DNA of 64,000 nucleotides from Oceanicaulis sp. MMSF_3324 (GTDB taxonomy: Bacteria > Pseudomonadota > Alphaproteobacteria > Caulobacterales > Maricaulaceae), in contig NZ_JASHIU010000015.1 of the NCBI RefSeq assembly GCF_030733545.1, forward strand, positions 1 through 64,000, in the 5' to 3' direction. Positions 29,927 to 62,026 of this stretch are shown piece by piece (the stretch's first letter is position 1; each line of letters opens with the position of its first letter). The notes under the pieces are model-generated. The model was not told the DNA's origin. It made no database searches and saw only the letters and a list, made by a program, of their open reading frames with translations. The translations under genes and the position numbers were made by a program.

Positions 29927-32900
29927 CTAGTCCAGATGCAACTGCCCCAGCATGTCTGACAATCGCTCACGCACCACTTCGCGGGATGTTTCTCGGCGCG
30001 CGAAGTCCAGACCCGCCTGACGCAGTTCGTTCCAACGGTTCTCATCATCAAGCATGGCGAGGATATGGCGGGCGAAGCCTTCGGGATCATCAGCAACCAG
30101 CACGTCCACGCCCGGGGTAAGCCCCATGCCTTCCGCGCCGATGGAAGTTGAAACGCACGGCGTGCCCAGGGCCAGGCTGGCCGCCACCTTGCCTTTCGCG
30201 CCTGCGCCATAGCGCAAAGGCGCCAGGGAGGCGCGCACCCCGCCGAAGAATTCATCAATCGTGTCGACGAAGCCGAGCACTTCGACACCATTCTTGCCAT
30301 CAAGTGACTTGAAACGGTCCGGCATCTTGCTTCCGGCCAGCACGAAACGCGCATCCGGCTTATGCTCACGCACGCGCGGCCAGATCTCGCTCATGAACCA
30401 GTCCACCGCGTCCACATTCGGCGGATGGCCGTAGCCGCCGATGAAACCGACGCCTGATCGGCCATGAAACCCACTCGCGACCGGATCGGGGTCATGAATA
30501 AGCGGTAGTTTGAAGGGCGGCGTCTCAGGCGCTTCCGCCTTCAGGAGGTCGATCTCGAGATTGGAGTGCGGCAAGACGGCGTCGGCCGAGCGGATGATGG
30601 AGAGCTCGCGGCGCTTGGTTTCAGCCGCCTGCTCTTGCGCAGCGGCGTCTCCCGACAAGTCCGCCTCGCGCTGTTCACGCAGGAAATGCAGATCGGCCGG
30701 CATGAAGGCGATCTTCGCTTGCGGCGCATGGGTGCGCAGCGCGCCCATGACCCGCTCGGCGGCGCCGAACCGATGCACCACGACAAGATCAAATTCGCCC
30801 CCGCGCACCGAGATGAACGGCTCAAAGCGCGAGTAGAAGGGATGATAGATCGTCTCGACCCCCATCGCCTGAAGCGGTGCGGAATAGGCCTTGGTCCACA
30901 AGAAATTATCGACCGGCACGAACGTCACCTTGAAACCCAGCCCCTGCAAGGCGCGCATGGTCTCCACAGCCACCAGAGAGCCGGCGTCATGCTGGGGTTC
31001 GGGCGTGGTCAGATCGATGAAGAGCACGCGCTTGGTCACGGCGCGCTCTTTCTCCCGTTCAGGCTCCTGGGCGTTCGGGCGGTGCGCCGCCAGCACCCCG
31101 GCCCAGCGCTCGCGCAGCTTCTCGAGGTTCTTCACCTGATAGGCCTTGGCCCCTGCGGCCAGATCGGTGCCCGAACTCACGCCTTCAAAATGAATCAGCA
31201 TGGAGCGCGGCTGAAAGACAGTGCGCAACCCTTCGGCGCGAATACGGAACGCTAGGTCGGCATCCTCGGCATAGGCCGGGCGATAATGATCATCAAACCC
31301 GCCCAGCTGCTCCCAAAGCGCGCGCGGCACGGCGATGGACGCGCCGGAAATGTAATCGGCGTCCCGCGCATAGCTGAATTCGGGACGACGCGGATGATCG
31401 AACCGTCCCAGATTCCACGCCGAGCCATCCTGCCAGAAAATGCCGCCCGCTTCCTGAAGCCGGCCATCAGGATAGATCAGCTTGGAGCCGACCAGCCCTG
31501 CCTTGGGATCCGCATCAAGCGTGTCCACAAGCGTATCCAGCCAGTCCGGCAAGACCAGAGTGTCATTGTTGAGCATGAGAACAATCCGACCGCGGGCCTT
31601 CTCGGCGGTCAGATTGCAATTGCCCACAAAGCCTTGATTGGTTTCATGGCGCACCCAGCGCACATGCGCCATGGGCACGCTCGCCGCCGCCTGGGTGCCG
31701 TCGGTGGACTGATCGTCCCCAACCAGGATCTCGAAACTCGCCTTGGGCGCGCTCGCGAACACGCTCTCGATACAGGCCAGCGTATAGGAAATCTGATTAT
31801 AGGCGGGGATGACGATGGAAACGTCCGGCGCATCCGTCTCAAGGCGTTTGGCGGTGATCTTCGCCAGACGCTCCGCCATTTTGCGCGCAGGCGCATCACC
31901 GACCACGGTCTTGATCGGCGCCTGGCCTTCTGACTGGAACGACAGCTCATACCGACTGATCAGCTCGGGTATATAGCTTGCGGCGTCGCCAAACTCTTCC
32001 GTGAGCACCCCGTTCAGCGTCTTGATCGAACTGCGCCCTCCCGTTGAGGGTGAGCCGCCGGGCTCTGCGCGAGACGCGTCAAGCTGGGCGGCGAGTTCGG
32101 ACGCCTGACGCGCTTTCAGACGCGCGCCCAGCTGGCCGGTCGCGGTCCACCAGGCGGCTTTCAAACCCCGACGCACCCAATGTCTCACGCCGGGCAGGCG
32201 CGCCATGACCGCGCGCAGCGGGGTCGTCGCCTTCCAGATCGAGCTTTGTTCGATTGCTTTCAGACGCACCGCCTCGATCCGCAGGGCCTGACGTTCGGCA
32301 TCAGCGGCGACATAATCGGCCTGGGTCTGTTTAAGCTGGGCTTCCAAGGCTTCGGCCTGATCTGCATAGGCGTGTACGGACGCTTCGAGACTTTGGAAGT
32401 CTGCAATCAGGCGATCAACTTCCTGCTTCGCCTTGGCCGCTTGTTGTTCCGCATTGGCGGCGCGCGCGTCCTTAGCGTCAAGCTCGGCGCGGGCTTCATC
32501 CCGTTCTGCAGTCAGTCGCGCTTCGGTCTGCGCCAGAGCCTGCCGCGCCTGATCGCGTTCTGACGCCAAGGCCGCATTGGCGCTCTCAAGAGACTGTCGC
32601 TCCGCGTCGCGTTCCGCGGTCAGCCGGGTCTCCAGCTCCAGATAATGCTGGCGGGCCTGATCGCGCTCATCGGTCAGCCGCGCTTCGGTCTCAACAAGCG
32701 TCTGTCGGGCTTCATCCCGCTCAGCCTTAAGCGCCTCTTCAACCTCGGCAAGCGTCTGTCGGGCGTCATCCCGCTCAGCCGTCAGCGCCTCTTCGACCTC
32801 GTTCAGCGTCTTACGGGCAGCGTCGCGCTCCTTGATCGCCGCCTTGAGCGCAGCATCACCCGCCTTGCGCAAACGCAAAACAGAAGACCGGGTCACGCCA

Positions 32901-33706
32901 CTCAGACGATCCGCCTCATCGAGCAAGGTCTCGATCCCGTCCAGGCTCTCTCCCCGGACCGCCGCCAGATAAAGGGCGCCGACATCATCGATCAGGCTCT
33001 GAACAGAAGCGCTGAAATTGGCTTCCGGACGCGAGGCCGGCTCTGTCAGGAAGGCGTCCACCGCCGCCTCTCGCTCCGGGGTCACCGACAGGGAGGCCAG
33101 GCTCCACTCAGCCTGGATTGTCTTGATGACGCTGCGCCAGTCGCCTCTGAGGTCGGAATAGGCGACCACGACGCCGCCTGTGTCACGGATCGCTGTGAGC
33201 GCCTTCAACCCATACCAGCACCAGAGCAGACCGGCTTCATCATCGGAAAATCCATCCCGGCGCGCCAGGGACTGGGCGACTTCCCCCGCATCCCGATAAA
33301 TGAGCAATTGGCGCGGCGTATAGCCTGCCCGCTCGATTCCGGCGCGCCAGGTGTCGGAGAACAGAGTGCAACGCGGATCCTTGAGAGCGATCAGGGCATG
33401 ATTGGACCCATAAGCCTCCTTCACCGTATCCGCAGCGCGACGAACGGCATTGGAAGGCAAATCAGCGTCAAGCGGCGCGCGCCCCGTATAGGGCGCGTCC
33501 CAGGCGGCCTTACTCGAGTTCAGCCAATGGTCATTCAGAGCCACGACCTGCGACGGCTCCCAGTATCCGCTGCGATTGAAGCGGTTCGCCGGGATCAAAT
33601 CCTCGGGCAGGTCGGCGCCCAGCAGATTGAGCACACGGGTCAGCGCGGACGTTCCGGAGCGATGCATGCCCAAGACCAAGATCGCATCCGCTGATTGTGC
33701 ACTCAT
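29927..33706 (-). CDS. Sulfotransferase / coiled coil / GT2 / GT4-like multidomain glycan enzyme
   Basis: A 1259-residue fusion. Residues about 8-270 form a sulfotransferase-type domain with P-loop LVLGMHRSGTSAL and DPRCTLFSDTW, where PAPS would bind. Residues about 293-480 are a long coiled coil made of 18-residue repeats. A basic amphipathic region (VRHWVRRGLKAAWW) follows. Residues about 627-860 are a GT2 glycosyltransferase (VSIVIPAYNQISYTLACIESV, MLNNDTLVLPDW, GFDDHYRPAYAEDADLAFR). Residues about 889-1250 are GT4-like (VGFIGGYGHPPNVDAVDWFMSEIWP, VEVLGFVDTIDEFF, ASLAPLRYGAGAKGKVAASLALGTPCV). It probably extends and sulfates a surface glycan. The start at 33706 was preferred to 33775 because MSAQSADAILVLGMHRSGTS is the domain start. 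Confidence 0.9.
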   Translation of the reverse strand: MSAQSADAILVLGMHRSGTSALTRVLNLLGADLPEDLIPANRFNRSGYWEPSQVVALNDHWLNSSKAAWDAPYTGRAPLDADLPSNAVRRAADTVKEAYGSNHALIALKDPRCTLFSDTWRAGIERAGYTPRQLLIYRDAGEVAQSLARRDGFSDDEAGLLWCWYGLKALTAIRDTGGVVVAYSDLRGDWRSVIKTIQAEWSLASLSVTPEREAAVDAFLTEPASRPEANFSASVQSLIDDVGALYLAAVRGESLDGIETLLDEADRLSGVTRSSVLRLRKAGDAALKAAIKERDAARKTLNEVEEALTAERDDARQTLAEVEEALKAERDEARQTLVETEARLTDERDQARQHYLELETRLTAERDAERQSLESANAALASERDQARQALAQTEARLTAERDEARAELDAKDARAANAEQQAAKAKQEVDRLIADFQSLEASVHAYADQAEALEAQLKQTQADYVAADAERQALRIEAVRLKAIEQSSIWKATTPLRAVMARLPGVRHWVRRGLKAAWWTATGQLGARLKARQASELAAQLDASRAEPGGSPSTGGRSSIKTLNGVLTEEFGDAASYIPELISRYELSFQSEGQAPIKTVVGDAPARKMAERLAKITAKRLETDAPDVSIVIPAYNQISYTLACIESVFASAPKASFEILVGDDQSTDGTQAAASVPMAHVRWVRHETNQGFVGNCNLTAEKARGRIVLMLNNDTLVLPDWLDTLVDTLDADPKAGLVGSKLIYPDGRLQEAGGIFWQDGSAWNLGRFDHPRRPEFSYARDADYISGASIAVPRALWEQLGGFDDHYRPAYAEDADLAFRIRAEGLRTVFQPRSMLIHFEGVSSGTDLAAGAKAYQVKNLEKLRERWAGVLAAHRPNAQEPEREKERAVTKRVLFIDLTTPEPQHDAGSLVAVETMRALQGLGFKVTFVPVDNFLWTKAYSAPLQAMGVETIYHPFYSRFEPFISVRGGEFDLVVVHRFGAAERVMGALRTHAPQAKIAFMPADLHFLREQREADLSGDAAAQEQAAETKRRELSIIRSADAVLPHSNLEIDLLKAEAPETPPFKLPLIHDPDPVASGFHGRSGVGFIGGYGHPPNVDAVDWFMSEIWPRVREHKPDARFVLAGSKMPDRFKSLDGKNGVEVLGFVDTIDEFFGGVRASLAPLRYGAGAKGKVAASLALGTPCVSTSIGAEGMGLTPGVDVLVADDPEGFARHILAMLDDENRWNELRQAGLDFARRETSREVVRERLSDMLGQLHLD
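32453..32830 (-). repeat. Seven 54-bp tandem coding repeats (ERDxARQTL coiled coil)
   Basis: Seven successive 18-residue units starting ERD (ERDAARKTLNEVEEALTA and relatives) encode the coiled coil of the sulfotransferase-glycosyltransferase fusion. The nucleotide sequences are visibly related (repeats of TCATCCCGCTC and TCGGTCAGCC-like blocks on the plus strand). This suggests growth by tandem duplication; copy number could vary between strains. Confidence 0.88.
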
Positions 33707-33843: not shown

Positions 33844-34821
33844 ATGAAATCGCTGTCGTCGGCGTTAAAGCCTGAACGCCTCGTCAGAGCTGCTCGCAGA
33901 CTGGGGCTGATGCCCGGGGGGAAGCCGTTGAAAATCGCCATCAGCGCGAACTGCCAGGGCACGCCGCTGGGACAGCTGATCACCACGATGTGCGACGGGG
34001 TGGAAATCTCGCACATCACGATCGTGCACAAGGCCCGAGATGATGCGAGCGCTGAGGACCTGGCCGCCTTCAAGGCCGCCGACATCATCCTCGCTCAGAA
34101 AGTCGCCGACAATTACCCTTGCGAATACGTGCGCACCAATGCGCTTCGGGAGCGGTTCGGCGACAAGGTCCTGTCGTGGGTGAACCTGTACTTTTCCGGC
34201 TACAATCCTGAACTGACCTATATGCGGGGTGATGATCGCACGCCCATGAACGGCCCCTTGGGCGATTATCATTTGCGCCCGGTCATCACCGCCTACCAGG
34301 ATGGTCTCAGCGTTGAGGATGCGCTCGCGCGACTGCGCGATCCCGACTACAACGCGACCCATTATTCAGGGGCCGCAAAAGCCTCCATGGACGAGCTTCA
34401 TCGGCGTGATGAAGACACCAACATCAAGATCGCCGATTTCGTGGAACGCCGCCTGCCGATCGCCAAGCAGTTTCACACCTTCAACCATCCCAGCCTGGAT
34501 CTGCTGACGGAACTCGCGGCCCGTTGCGCTCACGCCATGGGACGTGATGTGAGCCGCAGGCCGAGCCCCGGCATGCTGCCTGAACCACTGGGCATGATCA
34601 TGGCGCCGATCAATCCGCAAGCGCGTCTGGAAATGGGCTTCCCGGAAGATTTTGACCCGGTGACCTATAAAGGCACCCCGCTGGACTGGAGCCAGCCCCG
34701 CCCCACACGCCAGCCCGGCCATGCGCTTTACAGCATGACCGAAGTGATCGAAGCCTTTTATCGTCGCTACGACATTGATCGGGAAGCTGTTCTGGCGTTC
34801 GAGGCGCATCCGGAATCATGA
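33844..34821 (+). CDS. WcbI-like polysaccharide biosynthesis protein (putative acetyltransferase)
   Basis: A 325-residue protein with the WcbI hallmark KIAISANCQGTPLGQLITTM near residues 30-50 (N36, C37, Q38). It also has a middle IILAQKVADNYPCEYVRT segment and KQFHTFNHPSLDLL, where His residues complete the proposed active site. WcbI from Burkholderia capsule clusters binds coenzyme A and is thought to acetylate capsule sugars. It overlaps the next gene by four bases (ATGA) and is divergent from the sulfotransferase fusion, consistent with a capsule or exopolysaccharide cluster. Confidence 0.85.
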   Translation: MKSLSSALKPERLVRAARRLGLMPGGKPLKIAISANCQGTPLGQLITTMCDGVEISHITIVHKARDDASAEDLAAFKAADIILAQKVADNYPCEYVRTNALRERFGDKVLSWVNLYFSGYNPELTYMRGDDRTPMNGPLGDYHLRPVITAYQDGLSVEDALARLRDPDYNATHYSGAAKASMDELHRRDEDTNIKIADFVERRLPIAKQFHTFNHPSLDLLTELAARCAHAMGRDVSRRPSPGMLPEPLGMIMAPINPQARLEMGFPEDFDPVTYKGTPLDWSQPRPTRQPGHALYSMTEVIEAFYRRYDIDREAVLAFEAHPES

Positions 34822-35474
34822 TCGGGCTTTTCTCCGGCATCCCCAAGACCATTTGCCAGTTCTGGGACAAACCCGATCTGCCGGACGATCTTGGACCGCT
34901 CGTTCAAAGCTGGCGGGACCTGCCCCGCTACACGCACCATCTGTTCAACGATGAAACCGCTCGCGCTTTCCTGGCCGAGCATTACCCGGCGGCCGTTGTG
35001 GACGCATTTGATGCGTGCATGATCCCGGCCATGCGCAGCGATATCTTCCGGATCTGCGCTGTTCTGAAAATGGGCGGCTGGTATGCCGATTGCAGCATCG
35101 AGGCCCTGAAAGATCCGTCCGGGCTGATCCATCGCTCGGACGGGCTGGTCTATTACAGACGCTGGCATGGCGGCGTGAACAATGGCCTGTTCGCCGCCAA
35201 ACCCGGCAATGCCCACCTCGCCGCCCTGCTCGAGACGATTATCGACAACGTGAAAGATCGGGTGAGCGACAATCTGTTTCTGGTGACAGGTCCCGGCGTC
35301 TGGAACGAGCGCTTCCCCAAGGAGACGCCGCCCCCACCCCAAACACGCCAGCTCGACCATTCCGAGATCGCAAATATCTATGTGCGCTTCCATCAGGATC
35401 TCGCGCACAAGAAAGATGGCCAACACTGGTCTGATCAGCAAAAGGCGGGCGCGATCTTCCGCGACCCGGCCTAG
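34818..35474 (+). CDS. GT32-type (capsular polysaccharide) glycosyltransferase with atypical DxD
   Basis: A 218-residue protein resembling the sugar-binding region of GT32/OCH1-type glycosyltransferases. IPKTICQFWDKPDLPDDL at the start and MRSDIFRICAVLKMGGWYADCSIE (the R-x-D-x-x-R-x-x-x-L-x-x-x-GG-x-Y-x-D pattern) are clear. The DxD metal motif that usually follows GG-x-Y reads D91-C92-S93, so the second acidic residue is missing. Whether it is catalytically active is uncertain. It is translationally coupled to the WcbI-like gene and converges with the ABC exporter genes two bases downstream. Confidence 0.82.
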   Translation: MIGLFSGIPKTICQFWDKPDLPDDLGPLVQSWRDLPRYTHHLFNDETARAFLAEHYPAAVVDAFDACMIPAMRSDIFRICAVLKMGGWYADCSIEALKDPSGLIHRSDGLVYYRRWHGGVNNGLFAAKPGNAHLAALLETIIDNVKDRVSDNLFLVTGPGVWNERFPKETPPPPQTRQLDHSEIANIYVRFHQDLAHKKDGQHWSDQQKAGAIFRDPA

Positions 35475-35476
35475 CC

Positions 35477-36172
35477 TCAGCTCGACGATTTCAGCGAAGC
35501 GGCGTACTGATCGATAATCTCCTCGATAGGCCCGAAGGCCTGGGCGCGCCCCTGCTCAAGCCAGAGGCCCTTATTGCAAGTGCGCTTGAGCAGATTGTTG
35601 TTGTGCGAGGCCAGCACGACGATGCCCGCGTTCTCCACCATCTCGTCCATGCGCTTGGCGGCCTTGTCCTTGAAGGCCGCATCGCCAGCGCCCACCCATT
35701 CATCCATCACAAGGATGTCGGCGCCGATAGAGGTAATGATCGAAAAGCTCAAACGCAGCTGCATGCCGCGCGAATAGGTTTCCACGGGCAGATCCAGGTA
35801 TTCACCCAATTCCGAATAGGCTTCGATGGGGCCGGCGGCGGCTTCCGCATCGCGCCAGTTGAGCCCTTCGGCCAGCAGTCGCAAGCGGACATTCTCCCGA
35901 CCGGTCGCATCACCGTTCACGCCCAGACCCATTTCCATCATCGACTGCACACGGCCTTCGATCACCAGGTCGCCGGAGCGCGGGTAGATGAGCCCCGCCA
36001 GGGTGCGAAGCAGCGTCGTCTTGCCGGCGCCGTTCGCGCCGACAAGGCCCAGGCGGTCACCCTCATCCAGTGAAAAACTGATATCGGAAAGCGCGACCAT
36101 CTCACGATCGCCCGCTCTCACCCCGATCAGGGGATAGGCGACGGTCAGGTCCTTTACAGTGATTGAGGTCAT
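35477..36172 (-). CDS. ABC-2 polysaccharide exporter ATP-binding subunit (Wzt/KpsT-like)
   Basis: A 231-residue ATPase with Walker A GLVGANGAGKTTLLRTLAG, an ABC signature in the form ETYSRGMQLRLSFSI (YSRGM instead of LSGGQ, a hallmark of Wzt/KpsT/TagH exporters), Walker B ADILVMDEWVGAGD and H-loop VVLASHN. There is no extended C-terminal carbohydrate-binding domain, so it resembles KpsT more than long Wzt forms. It is preceded by its permease with nine bases between, and would drive export of the lipid-linked polysaccharide built by neighbouring enzymes. Confidence 0.94.
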   Translation of the reverse strand: MTSITVKDLTVAYPLIGVRAGDREMVALSDISFSLDEGDRLGLVGANGAGKTTLLRTLAGLIYPRSGDLVIEGRVQSMMEMGLGVNGDATGRENVRLRLLAEGLNWRDAEAAAGPIEAYSELGEYLDLPVETYSRGMQLRLSFSIITSIGADILVMDEWVGAGDAAFKDKAAKRMDEMVENAGIVVLASHNNNLLKRTCNKGLWLEQGRAQAFGPIEEIIDQYAASLKSSS

Positions 36173-36181
36173 GCTCGCCCC

Positions 36182-37009
36182 CTAGACCCAGAACACGATG
36201 CGGCGGCGATTGATGGCGAACACCAGATAGGCCGCAACCGAGCCCAGCACCGTCAAGGCGCAGACAATGCCCCAGCTGAACCAGGGGATTGTCCCCAGCA
36301 CCAGCGGGTCGCGGATGATGGCGATGTAATGGGTGAACGGATTGTAGACCGCGAATTCGCCGAATGTCCCGAAATCGCTCGGCACCCATAGGATGGGCGT
36401 CAGGAAAAACAGCAATCTCACAATCGTTTGAGACAAATGGACCAGATCACGGTGCCGAGCGCAAATCACGCCCAGAAAGGTCTGCGACCAGATCGCGTTG
36501 AGCACAAGCACCAGCATGGCGGGCACAGCTGTCAGCGCTATCAACGCGTTGGGAGGCGGAAAGAAGACCAGCAGGGCCACGATGACCCCAAGCGCCAGCA
36601 AAAACTGGATGATGCTGCGCGCCACGCTCTGGAACACATAGATCAGATAGGGCAGGTCCGCGCCCTTGATCCACCTCGCCGAGCTGATGAAGACGTTGCC
36701 GCCCTCAACCACGTTGGAGGAAATATAGGTCCAGATCAGAAAGCCGATGGAGAGCCAGAGCGCAAAAAAGCCGATTTCATTCTGCGTCATGGCCCCGAAG
36801 ATGAGAATCTTCACGCCCACGAACATGGCGAAGGAGACCAGCACCCACGCAGCGCCCAGCATTGAGCGCCGATAACGGCGTCGCCAGTCCTGCCAGGCCA
36901 ACGCACTCCAGAAGCGCCAGAGGCTTATAGAGCGCGAGAGCTCGAGCACGGAGGGTTTGCTTTTCTTCGCCGTCACAGGCGTCGCAACAACCGGTTCGGT
37001 TAAACTCAT
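36182..37009 (-). CDS. ABC-2 polysaccharide exporter permease (Wzm/KpsM-like)
   Basis: A 275-residue inner-membrane protein with six predicted helices in the ABC-2 permease pattern. An amphipathic N-terminal segment (SLWRFWSALAWQDWRRRYRRSMLGAAWVLVSFAMFVGVKILIFG) is typical of Wzm/KpsM, and the C-terminal half carries HYIAIIRDPLVLGTIPWFSWGIVCALTVLGSVAAYLVFAINRRRIVFWV. Together with the ATPase immediately downstream it forms a complete polysaccharide ABC transporter. Confidence 0.92.
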   Translation of the reverse strand: MSLTEPVVATPVTAKKSKPSVLELSRSISLWRFWSALAWQDWRRRYRRSMLGAAWVLVSFAMFVGVKILIFGAMTQNEIGFFALWLSIGFLIWTYISSNVVEGGNVFISSARWIKGADLPYLIYVFQSVARSIIQFLLALGVIVALLVFFPPPNALIALTAVPAMLVLVLNAIWSQTFLGVICARHRDLVHLSQTIVRLLFFLTPILWVPSDFGTFGEFAVYNPFTHYIAIIRDPLVLGTIPWFSWGIVCALTVLGSVAAYLVFAINRRRIVFWV

Positions 37010-37112: not shown

Positions 37113-38042
37113 ATGACCACTTCACCTGCCCCCGCCCCCATCTTCATTATCGGCGCCCCTCGGTCAGGGACATCGGTCATGACATGGGCCCTTGGACAGC
37201 ACCCCAACATCCAGCCCATGCCCGAGACCGTCTGGATCGCCGGCGCCTGCGTCGGCGCGTATCAGGCTTACCTGTCCGGATCGGACCGTGGCAAGTTCTC
37301 GCATCTGTCAAATGTGGACTACCCGCTCGACCGGTTTCTTGAACGCAACGGTCTGGCCATCAATCAGATTGTTCATGACGCCTATGACATGCGTCTGGAA
37401 CAGACCTATGGCGCGGATCGTCATCCCCCGGCGAACTGGCTAAAGCGCGATGACTGGCTGCACCTCAAGCGCTCGGTCGACGATCCCAAGCAGTGCTGGG
37501 TCGACGGCACGCCGCTCAACACCTTCTACACCTGGGCGCTGGCGCAAATGTTTCCGGGCGCGAAATTCCTTCATCACATTCGTGCGCCACACAAGGTGAT
37601 CGCCTCTCTGGAAAAGTTCGACCAGGTCGGCGCTTCGCCGGTACAACGGGCCCAGGGGCTGGACACCTGGTTACGGCACGCCCGTGCGAGTTGGTGGACC
37701 GAACAGGCGTTAGGCTCCAAGCGTGTCTACCGGGTGGATTTCAGCCGACTTGAACGCGAGCCCAAGGCGCTCCTGGACGACATTTGCGCTTTTCTGGGCG
37801 AAAGCCCGAGCGAGCACTGCCTGAATCCTTTGAACCAACGCCTGAACTCCTCAGGCACTCATGGGGAGGATCTGCGTGACTCCATGGCGGACAAGCTGAA
37901 AGGCTTTGCTGAAGCAGAGGCCCTCTACCAAACGATCATGGAAGCGCCGACAGACCTGCCGGGCGGCGATGAAACGGCTGAAGCGGAACTGCGCGCCCTG
38001 TTCGAAATGCTCGCGCAGAATCGTCCTCTGGTTGGCGAATAG
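37113..38042 (+). CDS. Sulfotransferase family protein
   Basis: A 309-residue protein with the sulfotransferase P-loop IFIIGAPRSGTSVMTWALGQHP near residues 10-31 (PAPS 5'-phosphosulfate loop) and the second motif KFLHHIRAPHKVIASLEKF near residues 150-168 (3'-phosphate loop). C-terminal acidic helices follow. The short start at 37113 was used because the longer frame adds non-conserved sequence and overlaps the permease promoter region. Sitting between an ABC polysaccharide exporter and a glycosyltransferase, it likely sulfates a sugar of the exported glycan. Confidence 0.9.
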   Translation: MTTSPAPAPIFIIGAPRSGTSVMTWALGQHPNIQPMPETVWIAGACVGAYQAYLSGSDRGKFSHLSNVDYPLDRFLERNGLAINQIVHDAYDMRLEQTYGADRHPPANWLKRDDWLHLKRSVDDPKQCWVDGTPLNTFYTWALAQMFPGAKFLHHIRAPHKVIASLEKFDQVGASPVQRAQGLDTWLRHARASWWTEQALGSKRVYRVDFSRLEREPKALLDDICAFLGESPSEHCLNPLNQRLNSSGTHGEDLRDSMADKLKGFAEAEALYQTIMEAPTDLPGGDETAEAELRALFEMLAQNRPLVGE

Positions 38043-39080: not shown

Positions 39081-39159
39081 TGGCGACCGGGTTGTGTTGT
39101 TCAATCGCTTTATGAGCCATGCTAATCCTCGTCCCAGGGGGCAGGAGAATGGCAACGCG

Positions 39160-45090: not shown

Positions 45091-45099
45091 GGACCGGCC

Positions 45100-46546: not shown

Positions 46547-46552
46547 CACAAC

Positions 46553-46987: not shown

Positions 46988-47150
46988 GAGCACACCTCGT
47001 GCATGACTAAATCGAGCGAAGGCGGCCTCCCTCGCCATATGGCGCAAGCATATCACTCGCCTAACAAGCAATGAAAGACTCAAGTGCGGTTTCATCGGTT
47101 TCCGACGGACCAAGGCGCTGATATAGCTCTTGAACCTGAAGGAGCCGCCC

Positions 47151-47864: not shown

Positions 47865-47879
47865 CACGCCGCAAGGCGG

Positions 47880-49079: not shown

Positions 49080-49081
49080 GA

Positions 49082-49777: not shown

Positions 49778-49788
49778 GTCTTTCCCCC

Positions 49789-53135: not shown

Positions 53136-53258
53136 CTGGGTATCCCCCAATTGATTAGCCATGGCTGTTCAGCGCCATGGGGCCAAACATGAATTTGTCG
53201 TGCTCCTGCAGAGAACACGGTTTCACGCCCCCCTCAAGCGAGGCGCCGAACGATGCGG

Positions 53259-53534: not shown

Positions 53535-54128
53535 ATGACATTTGATACATTTCCAGAGTTTGATCTCCAGTCACGACCGCAAACGAACGGACCGCTCGTG
53601 GTCACCCCGGCGCGCTTTGGCGATTCGCGCGGTTGGTTCAGCGAAAGCTATAACCGCCGTCGGCTGGCCGAGGCGGGCTTTGATGTCGCGTTCGTGCAGG
53701 ACAACCTGTCCTTCTCCGCCCACAAGGGCACGCTGCGCGGGCTGCATTACCAGTCCCCGCCCCACGCCCAGGGCAAGCTGGTGGGCGTGATGACCGGCGC
53801 GATCCGGGACGTGGTCGTGGACATTCGTGAAGGCTCTAAGTCTTACGGCCGGTGGGCCGCGGTCGAGCTGAGCGAGGACAACGGCAAGCAGCTCTGGGTC
53901 CCGCCCGGTTTCCTGCATGGATTCGTGACCCTGTCCGACAATACCCGGGTTGCCTACAAGGTGACGGACTATTACTCGAAAGAGCATGATGGATCGGTGG
54001 CGTGGAATGACCCCGATCTGGGCGTCGACTGGGGGGTGGACGATCCGATCCTGTCGGACAAGGACGCCGCCGCCCCGCGCCTGAAAGAAGTCGCCCCGCT
54101 CTTCCCGGCGGGATGGGATGGAGCGTAG
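53535..54128 (+). CDS. rfbC: dTDP-4-dehydrorhamnose 3,5-epimerase
   Basis: Third step of dTDP-L-rhamnose synthesis. The 197-residue cupin shows TPARFGDSRGWFSESYNRRRLAEAGFDVAFVQDNLSFSAHKGTLRGLHYQSPPHAQGKLVGVMTGAIRDVVVDIR with the catalytic His in RGLHYQ, and LWVPPGFLHGFVTLSDNTRVAYKVTDYYSKEHDGSVAWNDPDLGVDW, all family signatures. First gene of an rfbC-B-D-A operon; rfbB follows after two bases. Confidence 0.97.
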   Translation: MTFDTFPEFDLQSRPQTNGPLVVTPARFGDSRGWFSESYNRRRLAEAGFDVAFVQDNLSFSAHKGTLRGLHYQSPPHAQGKLVGVMTGAIRDVVVDIREGSKSYGRWAAVELSEDNGKQLWVPPGFLHGFVTLSDNTRVAYKVTDYYSKEHDGSVAWNDPDLGVDWGVDDPILSDKDAAAPRLKEVAPLFPAGWDGA

Positions 54129-54130
54129 GC

Positions 54131-55177
54131 ATGCGGGTTATAGTGACGGGCGGATCGGGCTTTATCGGCTCCGCCCTGGTGCGGCGGCTGGTGCTGGAAA
54201 CCGGCTGGCAGGTGCTCAATCTGGATGCTCTGACCTATGCGGCCTCCCCCGCCTCCCTGGCGGATATTGCGGATCACCCCAATTACGACTTCCTGCACGC
54301 CGACATTCGCAATGCCGAGGCGGTTGAGCAGGCGTTCGAGCGGTTCGAACCGGACGCCGTGATGCATCTGGCGGCGGAAAGCCATGTGGATCGCTCCATC
54401 ACCGGCGCCAAGGATTTCGTCGACACCAATGTGCTGGGCACCTTCACCCTGCTGGAGGCGGCGCGCGCCTATCGCGACAAACGCGGACAGGCAGCGGACG
54501 ACTTCGCCTTCCTGCATGTATCGACCGATGAAGTGTTCGGCTCGCTGGGCGCTGAGGGCAAGTTCTCCGAAGAGACGGCCTATGACCCGTCCTCGCCCTA
54601 TTCCGCGTCCAAAGCCGCATCCGATCATCTGGCGCGGGCCTGGGGCCGGACCTATGGGCTGGATGTGCGCGTCTCCAACTGCTCGAACAATTACGGACCG
54701 CGCCAGTTTCCCGAGAAACTGATCCCGCTGATGATCCTCAAGGCGCTTTCGGGCGAGGCGCTGCCCGTTTATGGCGACGGCTCGAATGTGCGCGACTGGC
54801 TGCATGTTAACGACCATGCCCGCGCGCTTGAAATGGTGGTCTCCCACGGTCAGGCCGGACACACCTATTGCATTGGCGGCGACGCCGAGCGGACCAATCT
54901 TGAGGTCGTCACCGCGATCTGTGACCGGCTCGACGCCATCCGCCCCGCCGAAACCGCACGGCAGGCGCAGATCCAGTACGTCACCGACCGCCCGGGGCAT
55001 GATCAGCGCTACGCCATCGACGCCAGCACGATCAAATCCCAGCTGGGCTGGACGCCCTCTGTCAGCTTTGAAGATGGGCTGGCCCAAACCATCGACTGGT
55101 ATCTCGCGCATGAAGACTGGTGGCGGCCCATTCTGGACAAGACCTATCAGGGCGAGCGTCTCGGGCTCAGCGCATGA
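54131..55177 (+). CDS. rfbB: dTDP-glucose 4,6-dehydratase
   Basis: Second step of dTDP-L-rhamnose synthesis. A 348-residue extended SDR: VTGGSGFIGSALVRRL (NAD loop), HLAAESHVDRSITGAKDFVDTNVLGTFTLLEAA, HVSTDEVFGSLG with the catalytic Asp-Glu pair, and SPYSASKAASDHLARAWGRTYGLDVRVSNCSNNYGPRQFPEKLIPLMIL with YxxxK. The start at ATG 54131 gives the usual MRVIVTGG. Overlaps the rfbD start by four bases. Confidence 0.97.
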   Translation: MRVIVTGGSGFIGSALVRRLVLETGWQVLNLDALTYAASPASLADIADHPNYDFLHADIRNAEAVEQAFERFEPDAVMHLAAESHVDRSITGAKDFVDTNVLGTFTLLEAARAYRDKRGQAADDFAFLHVSTDEVFGSLGAEGKFSEETAYDPSSPYSASKAASDHLARAWGRTYGLDVRVSNCSNNYGPRQFPEKLIPLMILKALSGEALPVYGDGSNVRDWLHVNDHARALEMVVSHGQAGHTYCIGGDAERTNLEVVTAICDRLDAIRPAETARQAQIQYVTDRPGHDQRYAIDASTIKSQLGWTPSVSFEDGLAQTIDWYLAHEDWWRPILDKTYQGERLGLSA

Positions 55178-56064
55178 GCCGCGCCCCTGCTGACAGCCTG
55201 AAACCGATCCTGGTGATCGGACGGTCCGGACAACTGGCCCAGGCGCTTGTCCAGGCAGACCCGGACCTTCTGGCGTGCGGGCGTGACCAGTTTGATCTGG
55301 CGCAGGACGATCCCGCAGCGTTGCTGGACGCCCATGCGCCGTTCGCGGTCATCAACGCCGCCGCCTATACAGATGTCAATGGCGCTGAAGCCGATCCGGA
55401 AGGCGCCCAGGCGCTCAATTGCACCGGGCCGGCGCGCCTGGCCTCGGCCTGCAAGGCGCGGGGCATCCGCTTTCTGCACGTCTCGACCGACTATGTCTTT
55501 GATGGCGCGCCCGGCGCAGCCCCCTACAAGGAAAGCGCGCGCACCCACCCGCTCAATGTCTATGCCCGCAGCAAGCGCAATGGCGAGGATGCGGTGATGA
55601 CCGCCAATCCGGATGCGCTGATCCTGCGCGCCGCATGGATCTTTGACGCGCGTGGCGGCAGCTTTCTCAATGCCATCCTGAACCGGCTGGACAATGGACT
55701 GCCCCTCAAGGTCGTCCATGATCAGATCAGCACGCCGACCTGGGCGCCGGACCTGGCGCAGGCGCTGCTCGCCCTGGCCCAGCGTGATGTGATGCCGGGC
55801 GGACTGTATCACTTCAGCGGCGGCGACGCGGCCAGCTGGTACGACTTCGCCAAGGCTGCGATTGCATTGTCGCATGAGCGTCTGCCGGTGGAGCCTGTGA
55901 TTGACCCGGTGGATTCCAGCGCCTTTCCGCAACCCGCTCAAAGGCCGCTCGATACGCGCATGGACGCACAGGCCTTGCTCAAGGCAACCGGGATCGGCCC
56001 CGGAGACTGGCGCGCGGGCTTGCCTGAGGTGATCGCCCGGCGCTATGAGCAGCGCAAAGAATAA
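55174..56064 (+). CDS. rfbD: dTDP-4-dehydrorhamnose reductase
   Basis: Final step, NAD(P)H reduction to dTDP-L-rhamnose. A 296-residue SDR with PILVIGRSGQLAQALVQA (variant of the GxxGQLG loop), VINAAAYTDVNGAEADPEGAQALNCTGPARLASACKARGIRFLHVSTDYVFDGAPGAAPYKE, and HPLNVYARSKRNGEDAV (YxxxK). The start ATG overlaps the rfbB stop (ATGA). Confidence 0.96.
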   Translation: MSRAPADSLKPILVIGRSGQLAQALVQADPDLLACGRDQFDLAQDDPAALLDAHAPFAVINAAAYTDVNGAEADPEGAQALNCTGPARLASACKARGIRFLHVSTDYVFDGAPGAAPYKESARTHPLNVYARSKRNGEDAVMTANPDALILRAAWIFDARGGSFLNAILNRLDNGLPLKVVHDQISTPTWAPDLAQALLALAQRDVMPGGLYHFSGGDAASWYDFAKAAIALSHERLPVEPVIDPVDSSAFPQPAQRPLDTRMDAQALLKATGIGPGDWRAGLPEVIARRYEQRKE

Positions 56065-56077: not shown

Positions 56078-56962
56078 ATGTCAAAAACTACCAAGGGCAT
56101 CATACTGGCCGGGGGGCTGGGCAGCCGTTTGCGCCCGATCACGCTCGCCGTGTCCAAACAGCTTCTTCCGATTTATGACAAGCCGCTGATTTTCTATCCG
56201 TTTTCCACGCTATTACTGGCGGGAATCCGCGAAATCCTCATCATCACCACGCCGGAGAGCAAGGCGGCTTACGAGACCCTGCTCGGTGACGGCTCGCGCT
56301 TTGGCGTCAGCATCGAGTATGCGGAACAGGATGAGCCGCGCGGCCTGGCGGAAGCCTTCCTGATCGGCGAAGAGTTTATTGGCGATGACAATGTCGCCCT
56401 GATCCTGGGCGACAACCTCTTCCATGGCGCAGGCCTGGTTGAGGGTCTGCGCACGGCTGGCGAGTTCGACGAAGGCGCGCTTGTCTTCGCCTATCATGTC
56501 GCTGACCCGACCGCCTTCGGCGTTGTCGAGCTTGATGATACCGGCCGCGCCATCAGCCTTGAGGAAAAGCCCAAGAAACCGCGCAGCAACTGGGCCGTGA
56601 CCGGTCTGTACTTCTATGATTCCAGCGTGGTGGAGATCGCCAAGTCGATCACGCCGTCCGCACGGGGCGAACTCGAGATCACTTCGGTCAATGAAGCCTA
56701 TATGGAGCGCGGCCAGTTGAAGGTTCAGCTGCTCTCACGCGGCGTCGCCTGGCTGGACACCGGCACGGTGGAAGGCATGGTCGAAGCGACCGAATATGTC
56801 CGCGCCATCGAGAAACGCCAGGGTCTGAAGATCGCCTGCCCCGAAGAAATCGCCTGGCGCAACGGCTTCATCACTGACGAGCAATTGAAAAAGACCGCCA
56901 ACGCGATCCCCAACGCGTATGGCGCCTATCTCAAAAACCTGCTGAAATCCGAACGCCGCTAA
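56078..56962 (+). CDS. rfbA: Glucose-1-phosphate thymidylyltransferase
   Basis: First step of dTDP-L-rhamnose synthesis: glucose 1-phosphate and dTTP to dTDP-glucose. The 294-residue product has [54 protein letters not shown] (nucleotide-binding loop), [11 protein letters not shown], and [27 protein letters not shown]...[13 protein letters not shown]. Last gene of the rhamnose operon; cysQ follows 25 bases later on the same strand, so the operon may extend. Confidence 0.97.
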
Positions 56963-56987
56963 TCGCTCATACTGAAAGGTCGTGACC

Positions 56988-57776
56988 ATGACACTCGACG
57001 CTCTCGCCCGGTCCTTTGGTCAGATCTGTCTGGAAGCCGCCATCCCCGTGATGGAGGTCTATGAAAGCGATTTCACCGCCGAGCAGAAAGCGGACAAATC
57101 ACCGGTCACCGAAGCGGACAAACGCGCCGAGGACGTCATCCTGAAGGCTCTGGCCAAGCTGATGCCGGACGTACCTGTGCTGGCCGAAGAAAGTTTCGAA
57201 GCTGGCGTGCGCCCCTCGGTCGAAGATGAATTCCTGCTGGTGGACCCGGTCGACGGCACCAAGGAATTCATCGCCAAACGCGGCGAATTCACGATCAATA
57301 TCGCCTTGATCCGCAATGGGGAACCCGTTGCCGGCGCGGTCTACGCGCCAGCACTCCGCCAGCTCTATCTGGGCGGCGAGACCGCCTTCACCGGCGCTTT
57401 CAAGCCTGGCGACACCTTGCAAGATGATCGCCTGTCTCCTGCGCAAACACGCCGCAAGCCCGAAGCCGGCATGACCGCGGTCATGAGCCGGTCTCACGCT
57501 GATGAGCAGACCAAGGCCTTTGCCGAATCCCAAGGCGTCACGGAAGCCATTTCCGCTGGCTCATCCTTGAAGTTCTGCAAGCTGGCTGAAGGCGCTGCTG
57601 ACCTGTATCCGCGCTTCGGTCCGACAATGGAATGGGATACGGCGGCGGGTCACGCGGTTCTGAACGCAGCCGGTGGCGCCGTAACCGAACCTGACGGCGC
57701 GCCCTTCCGTTATGGCAAGACCGAAGCTGGCTACAAGAACGGCGCCTTTGTGGCCTGGGCGCAGCCCCGCGCCTGA
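56988..57776 (+). CDS. cysQ: 3'(2'),5'-bisphosphate nucleotidase CysQ
   Basis: Removes the 3'-phosphate of PAP, the product of sulfotransferases and PAPS reductase, keeping these reactions moving. The 262-residue inositol-monophosphatase-fold enzyme shows SPVTEADKRAEDVILKAL, PVLAEESFEAG, LVDPVDGTKEFIAKRGEFTINIALIRNGEPVAGAVYAPAL (DPVDGTKEF metal motif) and YPRFGPTMEWDTAAGHAVLNAAGG (WDxAAGxAV). ATG 56988 is preceded by GAAAGG. It sits between the rhamnose genes and the sulfate-activation genes, consistent with a sulfotransfer role. Confidence 0.95.
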   Translation: MTLDALARSFGQICLEAAIPVMEVYESDFTAEQKADKSPVTEADKRAEDVILKALAKLMPDVPVLAEESFEAGVRPSVEDEFLLVDPVDGTKEFIAKRGEFTINIALIRNGEPVAGAVYAPALRQLYLGGETAFTGAFKPGDTLQDDRLSPAQTRRKPEAGMTAVMSRSHADEQTKAFAESQGVTEAISAGSSLKFCKLAEGAADLYPRFGPTMEWDTAAGHAVLNAAGGAVTEPDGAPFRYGKTEAGYKNGAFVAWAQPRA

Positions 57777-57825: not shown

Positions 57826-59724
57826 TTAGCCGATAAATCCGCGTTCAATCAGCGCTTCGATCACCGCTTCTGCGGCGTCCTCTGCTGACATGTCCCCGGT
57901 TTTCAAGTGGATCTCAGCGTTTTCAGGCGCTTCATACGGACTGTCAAAGCCTGTGAAGTTCTTGATCTCCCCCGCCTGGGCTTTCTTGTAGAGGCCCTTG
58001 GGGTCGCGCTGCATGCACACTTCCAGCGGCGCATCGACGAAGATCTCGATGAACTCCGCCTCGTCCACCAGTTCGCGCACCATCTGGCGCTCGGACCGGA
58101 AGGGCGAAATGAACGAGCAGGTGACGATCAGGCCGGCATCCACGAACAGCTTCGACACTTCCCCGATCCGGCGGATATTCTCGACCCGATCCACATCGGT
58201 GAAGCCCAGATCCTTGTTGAGGCCGTGGCGCACATTGTCGCCATCCAGCGAATAGGTATGACGGCCCGCCTCGGCCAGCTTGCGCTCAACGAGGTTCGAA
58301 ATGGTGGACTTGCCTGCGCCGGACAATCCGGTGAACCACAGGACAGCAGGTTTCTGTCCTTTCATGTCGGCGCGGCGCGTCTTGTCCACATCCATGGCAT
58401 GAGTGTGGATGTTGCTGGCCCGACGCAGCGAGAATTCGATCATCCCGGCGCCCACCGTCTGGTTGGTGAAGCGATCAATCAGGATGAAAGACCCCGTCTC
58501 ACGTTGGTCCTTGTATGGATCAAAGGCGATCGGCCGGGAGGTGGACAGCGTACAGACGCCGATTTCGTTGAGCTTGAGCGATTTGCCGGGCTCTTTCTCG
58601 AAACTGTTGACGTTGAGCTTGTGCTTGAGTGTGGTGACTGACACCGGAGAGGTCTGCCCGCCCGCCTTCAGAAGATAGGAGCGCCCCGGAAGCATCTCCT
58701 CTTCCGTCATCCAGAGGATTTCCGCAGCGAATTGATCTGACACTTCCGGACGCTGCGACGGATCGGCCAGCATGTCCCCGCGTGCGATATCGATCTCGCG
58801 ATCGAGCACCAGGGTCACCGCCTCACCCGCACGCGCCGTGTCGAGGTCTTCATCTGCTGTCACAACACGGCTGATTTTCGCCGTCTTGCCCGAATGGGCC
58901 ACGACCACGTCATCGCCCGGCGCCACAGCGCCAGACGCCACGGTGCCGGAAAAGCCGCGGAAGTCGAGATTGGGGCGGTTCACCCACTGGACCGGGAAGC
59001 GGAAGGCATAAGCCGCTTCCTTTTCGGTGTTCGTGTCCACCGATTCCAGATGCTCCATCAGTGTCGGACCATCATGCCATTTCATCGCATCTGAGCGCGA
59101 GAAAATGTTGTCGCCATACCGGGCCGAGATCGGAATCGGGGTGATGGTGTCAAAGCCCAGATCTTCGGCAATGGTCAGATATTCGGATACGATTTCATGG
59201 AACCGGGCGCGGGAATGGTCCACCAGGTCCATCTTGTTGACCGCCAGCACGGCATGGCGAATGCCCATCATGTTGGCGATATAGGTGTGACGCCTGGTCT
59301 GGGTCAAAACGCCTTTGCGGGCGTCCACCAAGATGATGGCGAGGTCCGCCGTCGAAGCGCCCGTCGCCATGTTCCGCGTGTATTGTTCGTGCCCGGGCGT
59401 ATCGGCGACGATGAACTTGCGCTTTTCGGTATTGAAGAAGCGATAGGCCACATCGATGGTGATGCCCTGCTCGCGCTCAGCCTCCAGGCCGTCGAGCAGA
59501 AGGGCGAAGTCGATCTCTTCACCCGCCGTGCCATGCTTGCGGGAATCGCGCTCGAGCACCTTGATCTGATCTTCAAACAAGAGCTTGGAATCATACAGCA
59601 AGCGGCCGATCAGCGTGGACTTGCCGTCATCCACGGAGCCGCAGGTGATGACCCGCAGCACGCCATTCTCACCCGCTCGGGTCAGACGCTCGGAGACTTC
59701 TGCGCGGATTGCATCATCAGCCAT
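57826..59724 (-). CDS. cysNC: Bifunctional sulfate adenylyltransferase large subunit / adenylylsulfate kinase (CysNC)
   Basis: A 632-residue fusion making PAPS. The N-terminal part (to about 440) is the GTPase subunit Cys[48 protein letters not shown]. The C-terminal part from about 460 is APS kinase: [24 protein letters not shown] with its P-loop, [16 protein letters not shown] and [14 protein letters not shown]. The fusion matches NodQ/CysNC proteins. The start at 59724 ([10 protein letters not shown]) replaces the longer frame. It follows cysD by one base. PAPS made here feeds the two sulfotransferases in this window. Confidence 0.97.
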
Positions 59725-59725
59725 C

Positions 59726-60697
59726 TTAGAAATACCCCTCGCGCTTCTTCTTCTCCATGGAGCCGGCCTCATCAAAATCGATCAGGCGGCCAGCACGCTC
59801 GGAGGTGCGCGCTGTCAGCATTTCAAGGACGATGTCATCAAGCGTCTCCGCCTGGCTCTCAACCGCGCCGGTCAGCGGGTAGCAGCCCAGGGTCCGGAAA
59901 CGGATCTTGCGCATTTCCGGCGTCTCGCCATCCTCGAACACCATGCGCTCGTCATCGACCATGATCAGCGTGCCATCGCGCTCGACAACAGGTCGTTCGC
60001 CTGCGAAGTAAAGCGGGACGATCGGGATATCCTCTTCCAGGATGTACTGCCAGATATCCACTTCGGTCCAGTTGGAGAGCGGGAAGACTCGGATGCTCTC
60101 CCCTTTCCGGATCCGGGTGTTGTAGGTCCGCCAAAGCTCCGGGCGCTGATTACGCGGGTCCCAGGCATGGGCCGCATTCCGGAAAGAAAAGACGCGTTCC
60201 TTGGCGCGGGACTTCTCTTCGTCGCGACGGCCGCCACCAAAGGCCGCGTCATAGCGCCCGTGATTGAGCGCCTGCAGAAGGCCTTCAGTCCGCATCACCT
60301 GGGTATGCAGCGCAGAACCGTCAGTAAACGGATTGATCTCGCGTGACTTCCCTTCCTCATTCACCCAGACGATCATGTCGAGCCCGAGCGCCTCGGTCAG
60401 GGCATCGCGAAATTCGCCCATGGCCTGGAACTCCCACAGGGAGTCGATGTGCAGGAACGGGAAGGGCGGCTTGGACGGGAAGAATGCTTTCATGGCTAGA
60501 TGAAGCATCACCGTAGAGTCCTTGCCGATCGAATACAGCATGACCGGGCGCTCAAATTCAGCCGCCACTTCGCGCATGATATGAATGGCTTCAGCTTCTA
60601 GCGCCTTGAGGTGGGGAGAGAGCTGGCGCTTACGCGGCTTGGCGCCGTGAGTAAAACGCTGCGCATAATTCTGAATGCGCGACTGGATGTCGGTCAT
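59726..60697 (-). CDS. cysD: Sulfate adenylyltransferase small subunit CysD
   Basis: Catalytic half of ATP sulfurylase. The 323-residue length is slightly longer than E. coli CysD (302). Signatures: [48 protein letters not shown] (PP-loop SxGKDS), [34 protein letters not shown] and NVxR-type [29 protein letters not shown]. It heads the cysD-cysNC operon. Confidence 0.96.
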
Positions 60698-60830: not shown

Positions 60831-60857
60831 ACGGGCGGCCCCAGCGGGACCGCCCGT
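60831..60857 (-). terminator. Hairpin downstream of the aminotransferase gene
   Basis: An imperfect stem (ACGGGCGGCCCC with GGGACCGCCCGT, about 11 pairs, one mismatch) around a short loop, followed on the reverse strand by TTTCTGTG. It is placed 57 bases beyond the stop of the DegT/DnrJ-type gene, a reasonable terminator candidate. Confidence 0.5.
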
Positions 60858-60913
60858 ACAAATCAACTTCAACGCGAACACGATTATGCGTTCGAAGACA
60901 GGCGCGCCCTCCC

Positions 60914-62026
60914 CTAGACGGAGGCGCGCACCGCGGCGATCACCTGCTCGAGGCGATCACCTTCAAGATAGGCATCCATGGGCAGGGAGACGACGCGCTT
61001 GGCCGCCGCTTCCGTGACAGGCAATCCGCCGGCGGGTTGCTTGAAGGCGGAATAACAGTCCTGCATGTGAAGCGGAACCGGGTAGTAAACGGCGGTGGGC
61101 ACCTGCTTTTCAGCCAGTTGCGCACGGAAGCCGTCCCGGTCGTCCACTTCGATCGTGTACTGCGCCCAGGTGGAAACGCCGCCCTCGATCACCTTGGGCG
61201 CTTTCACCACGTCGCCAAAGCCCTTGGCGTACGCATCTGCAGCCACATTGCGCGCCTTTATTTCGTCTGCGAAGATTTCCAGCTTCAGCAGCAGCACTGC
61301 GGCCTGGATCGTATCCAGACGCGAATTCAGTCCGATGCGGGCATAGTAATAGCGCTCATCCGCCTCGCCATGATTGCGCAGCGACTTCATCAAGTGCTGC
61401 AGATCGTCATCCTGGGTCAGCACAGCCCCGCCATCGCCGTAACAGCCCAGCGGTTTGGCGGGATAAAAGCTGATGGTCGCCACATCCGCCCATTCGACCG
61501 GATGCTTGCCGTTGAGCGTGCAGCCAAATCCCTGAGCGCTATCGGCGATGAGCTTCATGCCGTGCGCCTTGCAGATCTCGGAAAGCGCGGGATAGTCAGC
61601 CGGCTGACCGAAGAGGTCCACCGCGATCACGGTATGCGGATTCAAGCCTTCGGACTTGGCCCACTCGACGGCCTTCTCCAGCTGCTTGGGGTCCATGCAG
61701 TAGGTGTCAGGGTCAATATCGACAAACACCGGGTGCGCGCCCAGATGCGCCGGCATTTCCGCGGTCGACGCAAAGGTGAAGCTGGGTACGAAAATCGCGT
61801 CCTTTTCGCCGACTTGCCAAGCCATAAGCGGCAGGGCGAGCGCATCCGTGCCGTTCGCGCAGGTCAGTCCTTGCCTGGATGCTCCGAATTGCGCCAACCG
61901 CTCTTCCAGTTCGGTGACTTCCGGGCCGAAGATATAGCGACCCTCCTCGATCACCTTGGCGATGGCCTGGTCCAGCTTGGGCTGAAGGCGGGCCCGCTGG
62001 GCGGCGAGGTCGATGAAAGGCAGCAT
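60914..62026 (-). CDS. DegT/DnrJ/EryC1/StrS family sugar aminotransferase
   Basis: A 370-residue PLP-dependent aminotransferase of nucleotide sugars. It begins [67 protein letters not shown]. It carries [56 protein letters not shown] and [21 protein letters not shown] with the PLP Lys. Closest in layout to WbpE-like enzymes acting on 3-keto-UDP-sugars. It would place an amino group on a surface sugar. Divergent from glmM, with its own upstream region. Confidence 0.92.

Follow-up and report, generated by a model that had tools for sequence, protein, structure and literature searches.

Does a locus that brings together sulfotransferases, sulfate-activation enzymes, dTDP-rhamnose genes and a polysaccharide exporter work as a single system for one sulfated glycan, and is it inherited as one? 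The question is raised by the window studied here, bases 1-64000 of a 66.5 kb contig in the 2.98 Mb genome of Oceanicaulis sp. MMSF_3324, for which an earlier note had proposed a sulfated, rhamnose-containing polysaccharide assembly and export system at 29927-62026. We have compared the window with its own genome, with a panel of 119 genomes of the order (own genome, G000, included) and with more distant bacteria. The locus is probably a modular surface-polysaccharide locus that makes, sulfates and exports a rhamnose-type chain, most likely the O-antigen of lipopolysaccharide (LPS). Its parts vary independently among relatives, which does not support a fixed machine inherited as one. All genes named in the earlier note were found at or very near the positions it gave; those on which the argument turns are listed here.

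29927..33706, minus strand: fusion of a sulfotransferase domain, a coiled-coil-like linker, and GT2 and GT4 glycosyltransferase domains (ATG at 33706; sulfotransferase domain 32876-33706; GT2 and GT4 by Pfam)
35477..36172, minus strand: Wzt, ATPase of an ATP-binding cassette (ABC) exporter, 231 amino acids (aa) (PF00005; NCBIfam galactan Wzt/RfbE 207.7 bits, equivalog cut-off 400)
36182..37009, minus strand: Wzm, ABC exporter permease (NCBIfam galactan Wzm/RfbD 176.1 bits, equivalog cut-off 380; without a Pfam match)
37113..38042, plus strand: second sulfotransferase, ST3 (PF13469, E 1.7e-27, above cut-off; fold; motifs)
56982..57776, plus strand: CysQ, phosphatase of 3'-phosphoadenosine 5'-phosphate (PAP) (TIGR01331 274.8 bits, cut-off 228.8)
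57826..59775, minus strand: CysNC, ATP sulfurylase large subunit plus adenosine 5'-phosphosulfate (APS) kinase (PRK05506 1017.3 bits, cut-off 715)
59726..60697, minus strand: CysD, ATP sulfurylase small subunit (TIGR02039 503.5 bits, cut-off 396.6)

The first sulfotransferase domain, residues 24-300 of the 29927-33706 protein, scores below the Pfam cut-off (E 0.0081, 16.9 of 27 bits). A sequence-profile search of the PDB with this domain was weak (best E 0.0045) and structure was used instead. The AlphaFold2 model (8 sequences; mean pLDDT 87.7) has 13 PDB matches at E<=0.001, every one a sulfotransferase, with low TM-scores of 0.36-0.49. The motifs GMHRxGTS (x = S or A) and KDPR and the pair R138/S146, eight residues apart, are invariant in all nine aligned sequences, the window's included; we take them to be the 5'-PSB loop and the 3'-PB Arg/Ser of sulfotransferases dependent on 3'-phosphoadenosine 5'-phosphosulfate (PAPS). 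Judged by the modelled fold and these motifs, the domain is a real sulfotransferase, predicted to be PAPS-dependent. The domain proposed at 29927-33706 is thus upheld, while the description of the rest of that protein had to be corrected to the fusion listed above. The second sulfotransferase is confirmed as well: its start at 37113 is backed by alignment with a relative, R157 and S165 do not vary among 15 aligned sequences (own included), and its AlphaFold2 model (mean pLDDT 82.6) matches 22 PDB entries at E<=0.001, all of them sulfotransferases, again with low TM-scores.

Sulfotransferase domains were also seen in other unusual contexts. Two huge open reading frames, L058:7161-12641 (1826 aa) and L067:7394-13378 (1994 aa), carry a domain of the same type as the fusion near their start and lie close to Wzm and CysD in genomes G026 and G022. 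In G002, a genome without a match to PF01077 (the sulfite/nitrite reductase family), a PF03567 sulfotransferase is fused to an FkbM methyltransferase domain (L038:5401-7083) about 0.14 kb upstream of Wzm.

Relatives of ST3 were sought in 84,980 species genomes with two short peptide patterns, a scan that reaches close relatives only. It yielded 18 loci, from which three weak ones (L088-L090, E 4e-7 and weaker) were set aside, leaving 15 for all counts. The nearest named holder is a Maricaulis metagenome-assembled genome (MAG). Wzm lies in the fetched flank (up to 10 kb) at six loci (four Lysobacter, Hyphomicrobium and Ponticaulis), and six have a relative of the fusion with all three of its parts nearby (four Lysobacter, Rhodoplanes and Xanthobacteraceae). 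CysNC or its kinase part is found near ST3 at four loci (Hyphomicrobium and Dyella, with the kinase part only in two Paenibacillus); three loci (L079, L082, L083) have none of the window's other genes nearby. The gene order in Lysobacter is ST3, sulfotransferase-glycosyltransferase fusion, Wzt, Wzm, and in Hyphomicrobium CysQ-CysNC-CysD-RmlB-glycosyltransferase-Wzt-Wzm-ST3 is contained within 11 kb. Wzm is within 10 kb of ST3 at 6/15 loci, compared with 11/181 other PF13469 sulfotransferases of the order (Fisher p 5e-4; different search programs were used for the two groups, G000 is excluded from the second, whose 181 are match counts in which a single gene may appear as several fragments, and its 11 cases were counted by hand). 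Sulfotransferase, fusion and Wzm/Wzt therefore recur together outside the order, in Lysobacter, and the claim of linkage gains support from ST3 relatives that neighbour Wzm/Wzt or PAPS genes in Lysobacter, Hyphomicrobium, Ponticaulis, Dyella and Paenibacillus.

These loci also bear on what the sulfotransferases act upon. They might modify another acceptor than the exported glycan, namely a protein, a lipid or a surface protein secreted by the type II secretion system (T2SS). The nearest solved folds of both domains include tyrosylprotein sulfotransferases, and ST3 is located inside a T2SS cluster in the Maricaulis MAG and beside one in the Ponticaulis MAG. However, a similar fold is no guide to the acceptor, one of the two domains is fused to two glycosyltransferase domains, and the same fusion adjoins ST3 and Wzt/Wzm in the four Lysobacter. 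We consider another acceptor quite improbable.

Within the order, linkage was assessed from coordinates and counts transferred by hand from profile-search listings. Wzm and CysNC lie within 40 kb of each other in 22 of the 66 genomes that have both, representing 12 of 28 genera, and a PF13469 sulfotransferase is within 20 kb of Wzm in 17/39 genomes; about 2 and 2.9, respectively, would be expected by random placement, calculated for ~3 Mb or the stated genome size and ignoring contig breaks, sulfotransferase clustering and relatedness. In seven more of the 66 genomes Wzm and CysNC are farther apart on one contig. Sulfotransferase positions were examined in all 29 genomes that have CysNC but no PF01077 match, and in 28 of the 75 with both, picked from the window's own family. 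The proposed association of PAPS supply, sulfotransferases and ABC exporter is thus recurrent in the order.

The exporter had been described as KpsT/KpsM-like. That it is an ABC polysaccharide exporter is confirmed, but the Kps assignment is not: the best NCBIfam models for the pair are those of galactan O-antigen Wzm/Wzt, under their equivalog cut-offs, and by these scores the exporter looks to be of the Wzm/Wzt (O-antigen) type. A Kps-type, Kdo-primed capsule would agree with the shortness of Wzt (231 aa), KpsT being short as well. Moreover, both published sulfated clusters, of Cobetia and Vibrio, are kps-linked in the parts of the reports used here (PMC11766843, PMC11641403). Against this, KpsS/KpsC (PF05159) had no match in the own genome or in the nine congeners searched, with a positive E. 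coli control, which makes a Kdo-primed capsule unlikely; among 16 genomes searched PF05159 was matched in G072 only. The Kps-type capsule was rejected on this absence, and we give it little credence. Wzm is the sole match at E<=1e-10 in the genome and shares no more than 43% identity with any relative in the 119 genomes, congeners included; such divergence would be typical of a surface-glycan locus that changes fast. When plasmids were searched with Wzm, 62 records were returned, every one below 60% identity, and the G+C content of the exporter module (0.585-0.611, window 0.625) gives no clear sign of recent transfer.

The PAPS-forming pair CysD and CysNC and the PAP-removing CysQ all pass their NCBIfam cut-offs, as the note had them. 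CysNC is the only APS-kinase match of the genome (matches weaker than E 1.3e-61 were discarded as P-loop look-alikes or fragments, together with G010:C28 at 2.7e-60, G010 still being counted as an APS-kinase genome). A spare, dedicated copy of the PAPS genes, as in Vibrio sp. KMM 8419, is rejected on this single copy. CysH is encoded elsewhere in the genome, directly after a PF01077 gene, so that CysD/CysN presumably feed cysteine synthesis too. The protein has the pattern CC...CxxC...ECG, as do 20/20 relatives sampled from genomes listing CysH close to PF01077 (21/21 in all). We take CC-X(60-110)-CxxC with a C-terminal xCG to be the motif of iron-sulfur APS reductases. Weighing this motif above the NCBIfam models, we expect cysteine synthesis to branch at APS, without need for PAPS, which would leave sulfation as the only role of the CysNC kinase half. 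APS is likewise preferred by rhizobial CysH and reduced in Mycobacterium tuberculosis, according to the portions of PMC6192434 and PMC3141025 drawn on here.

The distribution of CysNC in the panel points in the same direction. Here a sulfite reductase was scored as any match to PF01077; the family also contains nitrite reductases, so that absence means that neither reductase was found and presence may be over-called. Sulfotransferase presence means a PF13469 or PF03567 match only, and the p-values ignore the relatedness of the genomes. CysNC is independent of PF01077 (75/85 genomes with it and 29/34 without; p 0.76) and tracks sulfotransferases, which are matched in 102/104 genomes with CysNC versus 7/15 without (p 3e-7), or 98/99 versus 5/13 among genomes at least 90% complete (p 2e-8). 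The 29 genomes that combine CysNC with a lack of PF01077 span 12 genera. Eight genera are mixed for PF01077; in one of these (g2) the two genomes without it are no more than 70-73% complete. Exactly one PF01507 match, presumably CysD with no CysH, is found in 20 of the 29; seven have two or three, and two (70-73% complete) have none. Two genomes without PF01077 illustrate this: in G002 the distance to Wzm is 1 kb for a sulfotransferase and 23 kb for CysNC, and in G026 it is 13.5 kb and 19 kb, respectively.

A competing explanation is that the window holds two unrelated neighbours: a locus for polysaccharide export at 29.9-39 kb and, alongside it, a set of housekeeping genes (rml, cysQ, cysNC, cysD, degT, pmm) for cysteine synthesis and ordinary rhamnose LPS, with the sulfotransferases acting on some other substrate. 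It would account for a single-copy CysNC in a genome where CysH stands beside a PF01077 protein, for the T2SS genes that separate the halves, and for a congener, G008, that keeps the second half at 70-97% identity with the exporter absent. It fits poorly with the independence of CysNC from PF01077 and its tie to sulfotransferases, with the APS-type motif of CysH, and with Wzm-CysNC linkage in 12/28 genera and both halves within 11 kb in Hyphomicrobium. We judge it unlikely. By a narrow margin we favour extending the sulfated-glycan interpretation to the whole order: CysD-CysNC would in effect supply sulfation rather than cysteine synthesis; repeated losses of sulfite reductase would have left sulfate activation in place, linked to exchangeable cassettes of sulfotransferase, fusion and Wzm-Wzt that also occur in Gammaproteobacteria; and sulfated surface glycans would be near-universal in the order, kept by bacteria unable to use sulfate as a sulfur source.

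How the locus varies is seen in G008, which is collinear with the window from ~17.8 to 62 kb except for two genes at 19.4-21.8 kb without a match. In the first half the fusion is 70%, ST3 53% and GT2 82% identical, and the T2SS genes are also kept; in the second half RmlC, RmlB, RmlD and RmlA are 84, 89, 70 and 97% identical, CysQ 88%, CysNC 92%, CysD 90% and the DegT-family protein 91%. The Wzm of G008 is 200 kb from its CysNC. The exporter module, placed between the two sulfotransferase genes, is by this sequence comparison apparently exchangeable, having been either gained here or lost in G008. A single co-inherited machine, as the note envisaged, is not borne out: G008 lacks the exporter module at the locus, and ST3 is confined to two genomes of the panel, the own genome among them. 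Synteny across the order, the check that it had suggested, supports recurrent linkage but not joint inheritance, and the independent variation that it had named as grounds for refutation is found in part.

Several further results weigh against a sulfating and exporting locus of this kind. The two sulfotransferase genes of G008 are only ~0.1 kb apart, with no wcbI-GT32-wzt-wzm between them, ST3 is present in 2/119 genomes (own included), and ~12.5 kb of mostly T2SS genes (39064-51564) lie between the halves of the window. In 37/66 genomes Wzm and CysNC fall on separate contigs, which makes these genomes uninformative, and linkage of sulfotransferases to CysNC itself is modest (within 25 kb in 13/57 genomes, 4.3 expected; within 10 kb in 5/57, 1.8 expected). 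Four of the six ST3-Wzm loci belong to one genus, and with Lysobacter collapsed to one the association is 3/12 (p 0.045). As to sulfur metabolism, CysH reaches only 139.4 of 235.3 bits with the NCBIfam APS_reductase model TIGR02055 (the PAPS_reductase model scores lower still, 118.6 of 254.2 bits) and passes the equivalog PRK02090, phosphoadenylyl-sulfate reductase (224.8 of 154 bits); the PF01077 protein of the genome meets no NCBIfam sulfite-reductase model at cut-off, its best scores being nitrite-reductase-like. A sulfotransferase match persists in 7/15 genomes without CysNC, and further sulfotransferases elsewhere in the own genome (C11:73541, C1:111022) may use the PAPS. Finally, a motif scan of 14.5-20 kb around cysDNC in the PF01077-less genomes G001, G009, G010, G012 and G013 found no in-frame sulfotransferase, the G009 stretch running almost entirely to one side.

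The pathway that we propose also draws on the other glycan genes of the window, which are as follows.

15128..16342, plus strand: O-antigen-ligase/polymerase-like protein (Wzy_C; PF04932, E 2.2e-12), putatively linked to the glycan
16401..17831, plus strand: bacterial sugar transferase, candidate primer (PF02397, E 4.8e-66), putatively linked to the glycan
33844..34821, plus strand: WcbI-like protein (PF18588, E 1.6e-38)
34818..35474, plus strand: GT32-type glycosyltransferase, DXD family (PF04488, E 6.2e-7)
38046..39080, plus strand: GT2 glycosyltransferase (PF00535, E 9e-22)
53535..54128, plus strand: RmlC (PF00908, E 1.2e-69)
54113..55177, plus strand: RmlB (PF16363/PF01370; named from family and context)
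55120..56064, plus strand: RmlD (PF04321, E 1e-80)
56078..56962, plus strand: RmlA (PF00483, E 3.1e-70)
60914..62026, minus strand: DegT-family sugar aminotransferase (PF01041, E 8.2e-95)
62071..63552, plus strand: phosphogluco/phosphomannomutase (PGM/PMM; four PGM_PMM domains)

The full dTDP-rhamnose set had been predicted and is present as four open frames with strong Pfam matches; the GT2, GT4, GT32, WcbI-like and aminotransferase assignments likewise agree with Pfam. The range 29927-62026 is sound for the genes named and omits the ligase-like, sugar transferase and PGM/PMM genes. PF04932 is matched at C6:15764, in the window, and at C18:132585, and in all 16 genomes searched, hence it is not specific; the family also includes Wzy polymerases. 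In the proposed pathway RmlABCD would supply dTDP-L-rhamnose, and the GT2, GT32-like and fusion proteins would build the chain on a lipid carrier. CysD/CysN would convert sulfate to APS and the kinase half of CysNC would convert APS to PAPS, from which the two sulfotransferases would transfer sulfate to sugars of the chain; CysQ would turn the by-product PAP into adenosine monophosphate. Wzt/Wzm would then export the chain, which would most likely end as the O-antigen of LPS. The roles given to the enzymes in this scheme are those of their protein families. The fusion of a sulfotransferase to two glycosyltransferase domains suggests that sulfation may occur during cytoplasmic chain building, before export. 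From the observed gene identities, sulfotransferase folds, linkage and co-occurrence we infer that a single glycan is the target of these enzymes, that it contains rhamnose or that rhamnose bears the sulfate, and that the O-antigen is its destination.

The T2SS genes adjoin sulfotransferase, PAPS or polysaccharide genes again in G008, G007, G026, the Maricaulis MAG and the Ponticaulis MAG (loci L033/L034, L036, L059, L073 and L078), a recurrence that may exceed chance. In the Maricaulis MAG, ST3 is found between gspG and the next pseudopilin-like gene. Adjoining gspE in the window (51729-53162, minus strand) is a gene for a 477-aa protein with an apparent N-terminal signal, judged by eye, and no Pfam match; it is 81% identical in G008 and 28-29% in G007 and Maricaulis L073. 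One might speculate that the T2SS secretes it to the cell surface, where the glycan may hold it in place. A methyltransferase gene between gspF and gspE (49082-49777, minus strand) has the same place in G008 (87%) and Maricaulis L073 (63%). The window also encodes a GDSL lipase-autotransporter (10246-12069) and a delta-type carbonic anhydrase (20769-21821).

What is known of sulfated bacterial polysaccharides comes mostly from a small number of strains whose chemistry has been studied. If our interpretation is true, surface sulfation is common in a large bacterial order, which would matter for phage receptors, for attachment and for sulfated organic matter. Relatives with PAPS synthesis and without sulfite reductase would amount to natural experiments, since sulfation is the only use of activated sulfate to be expected in them, and the portable cassette of sulfotransferase, fusion and exporter is offered for testing. 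A Maricaulales cluster of such genes, or CysNC kept without sulfite reductase, was not found among the open-licence titles and abstract starts listed, which is weak evidence of novelty.

The co-location of these genes in one alphaproteobacterial region had been called distinctive, but it is not without precedent: very similar gene sets have been published for Cobetia and Vibrio (PMC11766843, PMC11641403); the comparisons that follow refer to the parts of the four sources consulted. The capsule cluster of Cobetia marina KMM 1449 shares with the window an rml operon, an ABC exporter, cysN/cysC, cysD, cysQ, sulfotransferases and a wcb operon, and its glycan holds 2-sulfated L-rhamnose (PMC11766843). 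It differs in belonging to a Gammaproteobacterium, in its KpsDMTE/KpsSC group III capsule system, in having wcbPQRT where the window has WcbI, and in a sulfate permease gene; a fusion like that of the window is not mentioned in the part consulted. Vibrio sp. KMM 8419, whose capsule contains sulfated rhamnose, likewise has PAPS genes, sulfotransferases, dTDP-rhamnose genes and an ABC exporter in one cluster, but with second copies of cysC, cysN and cysD and a kps exporter, whereas CysNC is single here (PMC11641403). M. tuberculosis shares CysD and CysNC, the branch point at APS, APS reductase, PAPS for sulfotransferases and CysQ clearing PAP; its acceptors are bacterial metabolites, and the same portion of PMC3141025 mentions no exported polysaccharide cluster. 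Rhizobia offer a case of alphaproteobacterial LPS sulfation from PAPS with an APS-preferring CysH, although NodPQ is there a second complex beside CysDN and no such cluster is described in the text used (PMC6192434). The kind of cluster is thus already known; what may be new is the variant, with its Wzm/Wzt-like exporter, fusion, single CysNC and alphaproteobacterial host, together with the order-wide pattern.

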